Assembly (NCBI GenBank): GCA_022561895.1
Contig: JADFQH010000003.1
Coordinates: forward strand, 2,448 to 38,407
Reading direction: 5' to 3'
Source of the DNA: Methanobacteriota archaeon
GTDB lineage: Archaea; Halobacteriota; Halobacteria; Halobacteriales; Halalkalicoccaceae
Length of the DNA: 35,960 nt
The notes under the pieces are model-generated. The model worked only from the letters and a program-made list of their open reading frames with translations. It was not told where the DNA came from and did no database searches. The position numbers were made by a program, and so were the translations under genes. Position 1 is the stretch's first letter, and each line of letters starts with the position of its first letter. Positions 28,657 to 35,960 of the stretch are shown piece by piece.

Positions 28657-28823
28657 CCACCGACGGAGCGAAGCTCCGTCGAGGCCTCGAAAGGCTTAGC
28701 CTTTCGGTGGCTTTGATGTGGACTCCCGGCAATCAGTCACCAGCAACAGGCCGGTGACTCTTGCCGTTCAACGTCACCAGAACGCTTTGCGTTCTGGTTG
28801 GCTCACGAGACCGAAGGTCTCGT
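28657..28823 (-). ncRNA. Putative omega-RNA (reRNA)/sotRNA region overlapping the tnpB 3' end
   Basis: Hairpins at 28662-28680, 28688-28706 (both enclosed by CCACCG/CGGTGG), 28736-28758, 28777-28797, 28805-28823; position matches TnpB guide-RNA scaffolds. Confidence 0.55.
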
Positions 28824-30032
28824 CAACGTCCCACCATTCACACGCACGTCTACTGGTGCGTCTCCGTTCCCCGACGTGGGCGAGGAACGGAGTCTGTGTT
28901 TTCGCTTCCGGGCGTATCGTAGCCCGATGTTTTTTGCCGCGTTGTAGTCTGCGTTGACCTCGTAGCTGCACTTCTGGCAGTGGAAGTGTTCACCGTCGCG
29001 GTTGTTGCGATGCGTGAACCCACAGTCCATCCGAGAACAGCGTTGGGACGTGTGGTTCGGCGCAACCTGCTTCGCCGTGACGCCGCGTTCCGGGGCCTTG
29101 TACTCGACGTACTCGTAGAGGCGTCGGAACGCCCAGACGTGGTGCCACTTCGCGTGTGGGAGCCGCTCGCGGATGTCCGTTAAGTCCTCGAACGCGATCA
29201 CGTCGCACCCGTTCTCGACGGCTTCCGAGGCAATCTCGTTGGCGACGGTGTGGATGTACTGCTCCCGCCACGCTTCTTCGCGCTTGCCGAGGCGGAGGAG
29301 AGCGTTGTGCGCGGCTTGCGTCCCGCGCTGTTGCATCTCTCCACGTCGCTTCTCGAACTCGCGGCACCAGTGGTCGTACTCGTCGCCCTGCCAGAACGTT
29401 CCGGTCGAAGCGACCGCAAGGCTGTTGACGCCGAGGTCGATACCAAGGACTGTTTGGTGCTCGGTATCCGCCGAAACCTCGGATTCGTCGTTGTCGTACT
29501 TCCGCGTCGTGATGTGGAAGTAGAACTCGTCGGTCGCCTTGTCGTATTGCAGTGTACTCGCCCGAAACTCGTACTCCTCCGAGAGAACATACCGCTCATA
29601 GGGCGTCGGACTATCCGCCGGAAGCTCAAAATCGCACTCGACGCGCCCGTTGACGGTTGAGAGGGATACGCGGTCGCGGTAGAAGGTCGCGCTTCGCTTG
29701 TCGTAGACCATGCTCCATGACGTGAACTCCGGCTGGCTCACCCGCTTGCCCTGTTTCCACCGTTCGACACAGCCTTTCGTCGCTTGGACGGCGCGTCGGA
29801 TGGCTTCTTGAACGAGGTTCGCGGTGAGGTCGGTTTCCTTTCGTAGTTCCGCGTAGAGCGCGTCCCGTGCGGTCGTGTTCGCCGTAACGCAGTTCGTGTA
29901 GGAGTCGTCGTTCCAACAGAACTCGGCGGCACAATTCGCGCAGTGAAGGAATTGTCGGGCGGATTCGTGGAGGTCATCGCGGCGCTCATCGGGAACGATG
30001 AGTTTGACCGGCGCGGTTCGACGCACCTCCAT
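28803..30032 (-). CDS. tnpB: RNA-guided endonuclease TnpB (IS1341-type), apparently intact
   Basis: RuvC motifs VLGIDLGVNSLAV, DVIAFEDLTDIRERL, NADYNAAKNI; zinc ribbon CSRMDC...CQKC. Confidence 0.92.
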   Translation of the reverse strand: MEVRRTAPVKLIVPDERRDDLHESARQFLHCANCAAEFCWNDDSYTNCVTANTTARDALYAELRKETDLTANLVQEAIRRAVQATKGCVERWKQGKRVSQPEFTSWSMVYDKRSATFYRDRVSLSTVNGRVECDFELPADSPTPYERYVLSEEYEFRASTLQYDKATDEFYFHITTRKYDNDESEVSADTEHQTVLGIDLGVNSLAVASTGTFWQGDEYDHWCREFEKRRGEMQQRGTQAAHNALLRLGKREEAWREQYIHTVANEIASEAVENGCDVIAFEDLTDIRERLPHAKWHHVWAFRRLYEYVEYKAPERGVTAKQVAPNHTSQRCSRMDCGFTHRNNRDGEHFHCQKCSYEVNADYNAAKNIGLRYARKRKHRLRSSPTSGNGDAPVDVRVNGGTLTRPSVS

Positions 30033-33131: not shown

Positions 33132-33239
33132 ATCTCTTGTTTGGACCTAGAGATATTATAGCTACTGTTGGGATGATAAAGGTCTATAAGTCAACGGCGA
33201 GAAAGTCCCGTCCTGAGGCCGAAGGCCAAAGGGGCGTCG

Positions 33240-33398
33240 CCAGAACCGTCGGTTCTGGCTGCCAACCAGACGCCACGTGTCTGGGGACGTTGACGAGACG
33301 CTTCGCGTCTCGTTCGCACATCAGAAACGCGAAGCGTTTCTGAGGACGTTAACGAGAACGAAGTTCTCGTCCGCACACCAGAAATCAAAGATTTCTGG
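33240..33398 (+). repeat. Array of six triloop-type hairpins homologous to the tnpB 3' end region
   Basis: Hairpins at 33240-33258, 33266-33284, 33293-33313, 33322-33342, 33352-33370, 33378-33398; recurring GGACGTT[G/A]ACGAGA. Confidence 0.75.
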
Positions 33399-33476
33399 GG
33401 ACGGTGACGAATCGCGTACTGCACGGGGATCAGCCGACGACGATTGCCGGCTGGATATTTCACGGAAGCGATACTC

Positions 33477-33600
33477 CTACTCGGTATGTTCCTCAGTCCA
33501 TTCTTGGATCAACCTCCGTACAATCTCGGCTTTCGTTGCATCCACATCGATTACAGCCTTCGAGAACTCTCGGTGTAGATCTTCGTCTAAGTCAACGGCG
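33477..33600 (-). pseudogene. Possible remnant of a CopG/RHH-like small protein
   Basis: VDLDEDLHREFSKAVIDVDATKAEIVRRLIQEWTEEHTE*, no start codon found. Confidence 0.35.
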
Positions 33601-33603
33601 TTC

Positions 33604-33791
33604 GCAAATCCGAACGCGACACCTCGAAGACCTGCTCGGTCTGTGGGACGAAAGCCGACCGCCAGCGCGTTGAGCGTGGGTTGTACGTCTGTGACGACTG
33701 CGGATTGGTTGCGAACGCCGATGTTAACGGAGCCAAGAACATCCGAGAGAAAGCAAAAGTACTCCCGAATCTCGCCGCTGATGGCGGTTGA
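33604..33791 (+). pseudogene. TnpB C-terminal relic
   Basis: KSERDTSKTCSVCGTKADRQRVERGLYVCDDCGLVANADVNGAKNIREKAKVLPNLAADGG*. Confidence 0.88.
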
Positions 33792-33995
33792 GATAGGGAC
33801 AACGGCTGGATGGCATCTCGGAAATCTTCGATTTCCGAGGACTCGTCAAAAATGCCGAAGGCATTTTTGAGACAGCCAGCGGTGCGCCTGTTCGATATAT
33901 CCACGGGTGGGTTTCACCCGAGAGAACAGACGACTCGCGAACCATAATATCCCAACGCTGGGGAAACCTCACCGTTTACGGCGAGGAGGCTGTCA
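33792..33995 (+). ncRNA. Putative omega-RNA scaffold / right end of the relic TnpB element
   Basis: Hairpins 33817-33839, 33846-33870 (11-bp stem, GAA loop), 33904-33920, terminal CCTCACCG-TTTA-CGGCGAGG then AGGCTGTCA. Confidence 0.55.
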
Positions 33996-34019: not shown

Positions 34020-34511
34020 TCAGACCATCTCGTTCTGCCCGCGGATCTGCGTGATGCAGGGGGCAAATCCGTGCTCTTTGTAGCGTTCGTACAATCGCGC
34101 CAGTTGCTCGCGCTCGGGGACCGACACGCAAAGCGTCCACCGGCCATCGCTCGCGCTGGCGGCTTGCAGCGTCGCTTCCTCGCTACAAACTGCGTTGATC
34201 CGCTCTCGTGCCTGCTCGTCCCATTTGATCCGATACAGCCACTCGTCTTCGTTGTCGAGGACGAGCGAACACGCGGCAATATCCGGATCGTCGATGAGCA
34301 GGCTCCCCGCCTCGATCCGCTCCGTCCCGTGGACCCAGATCGACGGCCATGTGTGCTCGCCACCGTATGCAGTGGTTCTCGCGGGTTCGACCGTTACTAA
34401 CTCGAACCGGCTCAGCGTTCGATCGAGGACGAACTCCCGACTGGGAAGCTCGAACTCAAAGACGCTACCCGCCGTTGAATCCGCATACCGTGGATTCGTT
34501 CGCGATGACAT
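34020..34511 (-). pseudogene. bat-like (bacterio-opsin activator) regulator N-terminal part, HTH-10 domain missing
   Basis: VFEFELPSREFVLDRTLSRFELVTVEPART... LARLYERYKEHGFAPCITQIRGQNEMV*; ends beside the TnpB relic right end. Confidence 0.6.
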
Positions 34512-34626
34512 GGAGATGACCACTCACCGTTAGCTATCTCCTCGATCCACAACCCCGCTCTCCCTAACATACGAAAGTCAAAATCCCGACGTGCCTAGAC
34601 TGTTAGGTTGCGGGGTGCTCCACGTC

Positions 34627-34866
34627 GCAAATCAGAGATTTACTCGCCCGACGAGGCTCACGCCTCGTCGAATCGCGCAAGGCAATACCTTGCTGACCCG
34701 ACGAATCTTACGATTCGTCGAACACACGGCTGGAGATCCGTTGGCTTGACGAAGCTCACGCTTCGTCGAACACCGGGGAGCAAAGCTCAGCTTGCACGAT
34801 GAGGCTTACGCCTCATCGAACAGCGCAAGACGATGCCTTGCTCGCCCGACGAAACTACGTTTCGTC
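34627..34866 (-). repeat. Tandem hairpin array, about 50-nt period, at the 3' end of the HTH-10 gene
   Basis: Type-A hairpins at 34650-34669, 34700-34719, 34748-34767, 34798-34817, 34848-34866, alternating with type-B hairpins (34627, 34677, 34780, 34825). Confidence 0.85.
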
Positions 34867-35960
34867 GAACACCATCTCGAAGATCTTGCGCTGGCTCGCC
34901 CGCAGGTGCTGTATGAACGTCGGCTGAGAGATACCTAATGAAGCGGTGACCTCTTGGCCCGTACTCTCACGCGGGGACTCGAAAAAGCCACTCAGATACG
35001 CCGTCCTGAGGACCTCCTGTTGGCGCTCGGTGAGGCGCTCTTCGAAGGCCGTCCGTAGCTCGTGGCGGGTCGTTGCCGGTCGATCACGACTACGGCGCGC
35101 GAGCAGTTCCGTTTGGGGGTACTGCCCCTGGAGAGTTTCGATGAACTCGCGGGTTTCGGTGGTGGCGGGAAGATCGATAATGGCCCTCCCACTGTCGCCG
35201 TCGATACTGAGCGAGCGGATCGCACCGTCCCGCTCGATGAGCACCATCGGGAGCGACCGCCCGGAACAGACGGCCTTGAACGCCGAGTTCTCGCCGTGAT
35301 CCGCGAGACAGGTCAGTTCCTCGATGGCGATCGAGTGCGCTCCGTGCGTCAGGATCTCCTCGATCGACGCGCCGCGTGCGGTAAAGAAGATCTGTGCGGT
35401 CCCGTCCGATCCGGGAACGAGCCCCTCGAACTCGATCCGACAGCCCGTCTCCCCTGCGAGCCGGCAGAGAACGTCCTCGGGCGCTGAAATCCGGAGTTCG
35501 AGTTCGGCGACGCTGTCGGTCTGGAGCGTTCGTTTCGTCTCGACGGTGTCGATGGCGTGGGCGATCGTCTCGCCGAGTTCAGCGAGGACGGTGTAATCGC
35601 GCTCGTCGGACTGGGGACAGCTCGCATAGACGGTCAAAACGCCGTAAGGCGACTTCTCGTACACCAGCGGGATCGCAACACAGGAGCGAACGCCTTCCGC
35701 GAGCGTCTCCTCGCGCCACGGGGCGAACGTCGGATCGGTGAGGATGTCCTCCGTGACCTGTAGCTCGCCCGTTCGCAGTGCGGTGCCGATCGGCCCTGTA
35801 GAGCCCTCGTCGGTCGCGATTGAAAGGCCTTCGAGATACTCGCTGTCGACGCCGGCCCACTCCTGTGGCACGACTGTGTTGGACCGTGTGTCGTACTGGC
35901 CGATCCACGCAAACGCATAGAGATCCGAACCGGCGAGTCGCTCACAGACGGTCCGATTGA
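34855..35960 (-). CDS. bat-like regulator with GAF-type and C-terminal HTH-10 domains; 5' end outside the window
   Basis: CVAIPLVYEKSPYGVLTVYA; LTERQQEVLRTAYLSGFFESPRESTGQEVTASLGISQPTFIQHLRASQRKIFEMVF; frame open through 35960. Confidence 0.88.
   Translation of the reverse strand, partial: NRTVCERLAGSDLYAFAWIGQYDTRSNTVVPQEWAGVDSEYLEGLSIATDEGSTGPIGTALRTGELQVTEDILTDPTFAPWREETLAEGVRSCVAIPLVYEKSPYGVLTVYASCPQSDERDYTVLAELGETIAHAIDTVETKRTLQTDSVAELELRISAPEDVLCRLAGETGCRIEFEGLVPGSDGTAQIFFTARGASIEEILTHGAHSIAIEELTCLADHGENSAFKAVCSGRSLPMVLIERDGAIRSLSIDGDSGRAIIDLPATTETREFIETLQGQYPQTELLARRSRDRPATTRHELRTAFEERLTERQQEVLRTAYLSGFFESPRESTGQEVTASLGISQPTFIQHLRASQRKIFEMVFDET

Follow-up and report, generated by a model that had tools for sequence, protein, structure and literature searches.

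Hairpin array at the end of an HTH_10 gene

The window, by which we mean the whole analysed stretch of 35,960 nucleotides, contains on its minus strand an HTH_10 regulator gene, followed by a tandem hairpin array and then by a gene for a BAT-domain protein. Two hairpin types make up the array, designated A for the type that encloses a stop codon and B for the type that lies between most of the A copies. The features are listed in minus-strand order.

34855..35871, minus strand: HTH_10 regulator gene with GAF, BAT and HTH_10 domains (Pfam PF15915, PF04967 and PF13185; open reading frame)
34847..34867, minus strand: A hairpin 1, GACGAAAC-GTA-GTTTCGTC, 9-bp arms, enclosing the HTH_10 gene's own TAG
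34825..34841, minus strand: B hairpin 1, GCAAGGC-atc-GTCTTGC, one G.U pair
34797..34818, minus strand: A hairpin 2, GATGAGGC-GTAA-GCCTCATC, 9-bp arms
34778..34788, minus strand: B hairpin 2, short, GAGC-ttt-GCTC
34748..34767, minus strand: A hairpin 3, GACGAAGC-GTGA-GCTTCGTC, 8-bp arms
34726..34741, minus strand: B hairpin 3, decayed, ACGGAT...GCCGT
34699..34720, minus strand: A hairpin 4, GACGAATC-GTAA-GATTCGTC, 9-bp arms
34677..34693, minus strand: B hairpin 4, GCAAGGT-att-GCCTTGC
34649..34670, minus strand: A hairpin 5, GACGAGGC-GTGA-GCCTCGTC, 9-bp arms
34627..34643, minus strand: B hairpin 5, GTAAATC-tct-GATTTGC
34020..34523, minus strand: next gene downstream of the array, BAT-domain protein (open reading frame; no Pfam HTH_10 match)

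The HTH_10 gene ends in ...MVFDET-TAG within A hairpin 1, and its open frame continues upstream toward the contig end. Direct reading of the sequence bore out the layout described in the initial annotation, with five perfect A hairpins on the minus strand that begin at the HTH_10 stop codon and follow one another at start-to-start distances of 49, 50, 48 and 50 nucleotides. Across the five, the arms vary at positions 3, 6 and 7, with each change matched on the opposite arm, and every unit reads TTC GAY GAR NCG followed by a stop codon. The B hairpin was likewise found between most units, being clear in three of five (units 1, 4 and 5), short in unit 2 and broken in unit 3. Four of the A loops are GTRA and so resemble the GNRA tetraloops to which they had been compared; however, the stop codon alone accounts for this fit, because a GCG (or TCG, ACG) codon runs into TAA or TGA, and a separate explanation is needless.

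The array gave a fold z of -8.5 as RNA of the minus strand and of -7.5 as DNA of the plus strand, and no cluster of at least three perfect hairpins (stem of at least 7) occurred in some 400 kb of Markov control sequence. The run of T that directly follows the G+C-rich hairpin of a bacterial-type intrinsic terminator is absent after every A hairpin of the window array. A search of Rfam with window positions 34500-35000 returned no match at E<=5, so that no known RNA family was found for the array. This null result, together with a limited literature search on such arrays in haloarchaea that yielded nothing relevant, agrees with the earlier statement that no described element has this layout.

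Usual location of the array at the gnaD 3' end

An association with HTH_10 genes, as first proposed, did not hold. The 3' ends of about 15 HTH_10 relatives, from the same genus and beyond, were read and all were without the array, and HTH_10-linked regulation was rejected on this basis. In a pattern search of the window's own genome (2.94 Mb in 392 contigs), the A hairpin was confined to the window array and a single further gene, two poor matches aside. This second gene lies on a different contig from the window and encodes a protein of the enolase superfamily with MR_MLE_N and MR_MLE_C domains. Its best NCBIfam matches are gluconate and galactonate dehydratases, the top one (NF040790) falling below the cut-off, and on the basis of this homology we name the gene gnaD, for a putative gluconate-dehydratase-like enzyme.

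In relatives, the same hairpins directly follow the same gnaD gene, which was found in 365 of 400 Halobacteria genomes. At the roughly 110 gnaD 3' ends that were read, arrays reach up to five units or more and occur in many genera. A covariance model (R1) was built from 37 units chosen for intact hairpins, each unit of about 50 nucleotides comprising an A hairpin with its stop and a B hairpin, and at E<=0.01, where near-threshold matches may be due to chance, it found the unit in 244 of the 400 Halobacteria genomes, spread over 69 of 86 genera. The question raised at the outset, whether such matches would gather at the 3' ends of HTH_10 or of other genes, was answered in favor of gnaD, a gene ending in LFDEA*, whose 3' end immediately precedes the array in 69 of the best 70 loci (L144-L213). 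The 70th locus (L213, genome G209) holds an internally deleted gnaD remnant, in which 49 N-terminal residues are fused to the C-terminus, and the array is still present. When genomes drawn from the whole phylum were searched at E<=1e-4, matches came from 27, of which 25 belong to the window's own order; the remaining two have a short hairpin repeat of another type. As a separate observation, loci L372 and L373, from family f24 of a different order, display a short double-hairpin repeat rich in A-T, GTTACGAA..TTCGTAGCTCACAAATC..GATTTGTGATG, whose arrangement of two hairpins is similar, and the L372 genome has six model matches.

A perfect stem of at least 7 bp with a loop overlapping the stop codon was present at 66 of 159 gnaD 3' ends, compared to 8 of 1,824 long control open reading frames, some of them gnaD genes or frames that do not code. 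Where the C-terminal codons differ (FDEA, FDPA, FDSA, FEEA, FAEA), the non-coding arm has changed to match. The only carriers found besides gnaD are the HTH_10 gene of the window and a 4Fe-4S dicluster (NarH-like) gene ending in VFDDA* in L361 and L362. There, an A-B-A unit (L361:1463-1514, L362:1450-1509) leads from the dicluster gene into the next gene, whose ATG lies within the second A copy (GTTTGACGATGACTG in L362).

The gene that follows the gnaD arrays is convergent in nine cases and co-directional in five. This mixed direction indicates that the element belongs to the gnaD 3' end rather than to the neighbor, and a tie to the downstream gene was rejected for this reason. Mapped on a gnaD tree, array presence required 44 changes, compared to a mean of 55 and a minimum of 45 after shuffling, in a count that does not distinguish gain from loss; such patchy presence fits weak or no selection. 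Taken as a whole, this is a real, class-wide haloarchaeal array whose usual place is the gnaD 3' end, and it is apparently undescribed.

Unit anatomy and array growth

Each unit consists of an A hairpin of the form TTYGAY..(stop in loop)..RTCRR, a GC linker, a B hairpin and a GKTG linker, after which the next copy begins. The left arm of the A hairpin encodes the last codons, FD[E/P/S][A/T], and its loop contains the stop. The B arms are diverse, including GCAAATC/GATTTGC, CGCTGAGC/GCTCAGCG, GCAGCAC/GTGCTGC, CGGAAGGCGAG.. and ACGGATC/GATCCGT. The decayed B hairpin 3 of the window is of the last kind, which is intact as ACGGATC-ttc-GATCCGT in a different gnaD array from this genus (L008/L023).

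Arrays grow through tandem duplication of blocks of one or two units, with the duplicated gene end included in each unit, and identical units in such blocks were found inside single arrays at L072, L167, L176 and L204. The arrays also turn over fast.

Source of the covariation

Two readings had been offered for the matched arms, namely a structured 3'UTR or non-coding RNA kept by selection and hairpins renewed by intramolecular template switching. Each of them received partial support. Template switching is favored by inverted loops, by the symmetry of A mismatches, by palindromic arms that persist in non-coding units and by exact duplications, and RNA constraint is favored by a G.U excess in B hairpins and by recurrence at one gene. 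Stem differences at homologous loci, random and uncompensated ones having been named as evidence against the proposal, gave a divided picture, with many loci intact and many decayed.

Among 210 distinct A hairpins with loops of 3-4 nucleotides, 77 are free of mismatches in the eight core pairs and 36 have one mismatch. G.U and A.C pairs were counted at internal positions only, the outer pair being confounded by linker bases, and the single mismatches of the A hairpins comprise 12 G.U and 10 A.C in the larger set (10 and 8 in the smaller). Selection on RNA should favor G.U over A.C and a process acting on DNA should not, so the symmetry of the A stems points to a DNA process.

The loops lead in the same direction. 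In first units, where the stop is needed, the A loop (GTA, GTAA, GTGA and similar) is in direct orientation in all 63 scorable cases. In later units, 8 loops are inverted (TAC, TTAC or TCAC) versus 39 direct, with the stems intact. Both orientations occur on the same arms within one array at L199, as GATCCGGC-GTGA-GCCGGATC and GATCCGGC-TCAC-GCCGGATC. Palindromic arms are retained in the non-coding downstream units. Inversion of a whole loop is not easily made by point mutation, and template switching between inverted repeats does produce it; arm homogenization combined with inversion of the spacer or loop is a described footprint of template switching (PMC8604942, PMC8794818). Only 8 of 47 loops are inverted, which means either that arms are corrected more often than loops are inverted or that the loops are under selection.

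The array shares with the template-switch, or quasi-palindrome, mutations of those reports (PMC8794818, PMC8604942), which create and maintain hairpins, its identical arms, whole-loop inversion, stable loops of 3-4 nucleotides and a covariation that would need no two-step compensation. Unlike here, where a tandem array occupies the stop of one gene across a whole archaeal class, the published cases from rRNA and yeast genes are individual events.

The best explanation, and in our judgment a probable one, is that the window holds an ectopic gnaD-type array whose arms are kept matched largely by template switching and whose B hairpins are partly constrained in the transcript. It is strongly suggested that during replication one arm would be copied from the other, so that the arms largely stay complementary, and the same switching would also invert loops. 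Copying of this kind generates covariation without any selected compensatory step. We infer that this copying is the main cause, and we consider it likely that template switching together with tandem duplication made the covariation. As the arrays expand by tandem duplication, each unit would supply an interchangeable C-terminus and stop, and recombination inside the array would then rarely harm the protein. This may explain both the expansion at gnaD and the joining of the array to another gene ending in TTCGACGA, for example HTH_10.

Possible selection on RNA structure and a possible 3'UTR role

The chief alternative is a structured 3'UTR RNA maintained mainly by selection, as a nuclease barrier, terminator, or processing or protein-docking platform, with ordinary compensatory covariation. 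We regard this as unlikely to be the main cause, although several observations speak for it, among them the presence at one gene across the class, the RNA fold score of the window array, the G.U bias of the B hairpins, and arrays that follow gnaD whichever way the next gene points. In units chosen for intact hairpins, 95% of pair cells are standard and two-sided changes number 114, compared to 29 in shuffles. None of 500 column shuffles reached the observed covariation score, which was again obtained on intact-hairpin units and is a signal that template switching yields as well. Selection as the main cause is opposed by the lack of a G.U excess in the A hairpins, by loops that have flipped as wholes rather than stepwise, and by gnaD hairpins that are decayed or absent in many genomes and change frequently on the tree.

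The B hairpins behave differently from the A hairpins. Their single internal mismatches comprise 31 G.U and 9 A.C, compared to 57 and 61 in hairpins outside arrays, and a strict set gave 15 and 2 (p=0.002), these 15-31 G.U events being counted without correction for shared descent. The excess could come partly from strand-biased C-to-T mutation; however, A hairpins of the same arrays are without it. The B hairpins therefore carry a transcript-strand bias, hinting at constraint on the transcript. Mutation by itself leaves the residence at one gene in most genera unexplained.

The B bias and the restriction to gnaD suggest that at least the B hairpins would act as 3'UTR structures shielding or defining the mRNA 3' end, and it is plausible, if somewhat short of probable, that some or all of the array has a 3'UTR role. 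In Haloferax volcanii, hairpins were reported upstream of 503 transcript ends, with one tested hairpin terminating 59% of transcripts (PMC7237163). Those hairpins resemble the present ones in belonging to a haloarchaeon and lying shortly before transcript ends and, in the one tested case, in terminating transcription, but they are single structures, with tandem arrays or stop-enclosing units not seen in the text consulted. A more speculative and rather doubtful extension is a gene-specific element in which the C-terminal codons and the stop would form the arm and loop of a regulatory hairpin, so that the array would serve both as a structure of the transcript 3' end and as a store of C-terminus and stop cassettes, perfected throughout the class by template switching and selection.

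Comparison with other repeats

REP/BIME and other bacterial extragenic palindromic repeats also consist of short, imperfectly palindromic sequences that alternate in pairs, and they too are often located in 3' regions. Unlike them, the present element has not spread over hundreds of loci, its arms are without a fixed sequence, no transposase was seen, and its first arm and loop are coding, comprising the last codons and the stop. The many dispersed copies with conserved arms that define REP/BIME were not found, matches being almost wholly at gnaD 3' ends, and a dispersed REP-like repeat was rejected because the A matches in the window's own genome are, apart from the two poor ones, limited to the window array and gnaD. 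CRISPR arrays also have regular spacing and palindromic repeats, but here the repeats diverge freely and carry coding ends, there are no spacers between identical repeats, and no cas genes were seen; the window repeats differ at three of eight arm positions, with hairpins occupying what would be the spacers.

A palindromic element of the MITE or REP kind that is mobile and targets TTCGACGA at gene ends would account for copies at three unrelated gene types ending in FD[E/D]x-stop (gnaD, the HTH_10 gene of the window and the NarH-like dicluster gene of L361/L362). Nearly every copy is at gnaD, however, no transposase, target-site duplication or fixed ends were seen, the B modules differ widely, and the arms vary so freely that an enzyme would find no fixed sequence to recognize, all of which makes this origin very improbable.

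Origin of the window's copy

The array in the window looks like an ectopic copy of a gnaD-type array, placed on a gene that likewise ends in FDE-stop. In the simplest account, which we infer, a gnaD array would have recombined with TTCGACGA at the end of the HTH_10 gene. A junction of HTH_10 with an array was found in no other genome of the family. Junctions of such a kind do occur, since in genome G003 (L008/L023) the gnaD array is fused into a truncated acetamidase gene downstream and replaces its 5' part.

An assembly artefact, in which the window array was collapsed with a gnaD array and two contigs of a fragmented assembly were joined at the HTH_10 junction, is not favored, and we consider it very improbable. 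In its favor, the assembly (G000) has a completeness of 71% and 392 contigs, only about 1.1 kb of the contig remains past the array and the junction was seen in no second genome of the family. Against it, the HTH_10 C-terminus continues in frame into the first unit (GACGAAACGTAGTTTCGTC), which differs from the gnaD unit of the same genome, some HTH_10 relatives end naturally in LFDEE* or have LFDE close to the end, and the downstream gene encodes a BAT-domain relative, a fitting neighbor.

Other hairpin clusters

In 1.24 Mb of sampled haloarchaeal DNA, several further clusters of at least three perfect hairpins were found, unrelated in sequence, and none in the Markov control. Such clusters are located at L217, L221, L226, L261 and L265, with L217 and L261 sharing modules within one genome. 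The window itself contains a second tandem cluster at 33239-33398, with five perfect stems in which CCAGAA..TTCTGG alternates with ACGAGA..TCTCGT, unrelated to the main array. The region 33460-33870 holds the decayed C-terminal part of a TnpB-like sequence (CSVCGTKADRQRVERGLYVCDDCGLVANADVNGAKNIREKAK) and, after it, two hairpins, GGAAATC-ttc-GATTTCC and AAAAATGCC-gaa-GGCATTTTT; an intact-looking IS605-type TnpB/OrfB gene (Cas12f1-like_TNB, OrfB_IS605) occupies 28803-30032 on the minus strand. Tandem hairpin clusters may be a wider haloarchaeal habit, in which only the gnaD family keeps to a fixed location.

Significance

Covariation is the standard proof of conserved RNA structure. The gnaD arrays provide a natural system, spanning dozens of genera, in which strong covariation bears the footprints of DNA copying in its inverted loops and strand-symmetric A mismatches. 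With the symmetric A hairpins beside B hairpins of transcript-strand bias in the same array, the shares of mutation and selection in covariation can be asked about directly, and some haloarchaea (Haloferax) are genetically tractable. In the haloarchaea themselves, a gene resembling a central sugar-degradation enzyme of these organisms carries a class-wide feature that seems not to have been described before.
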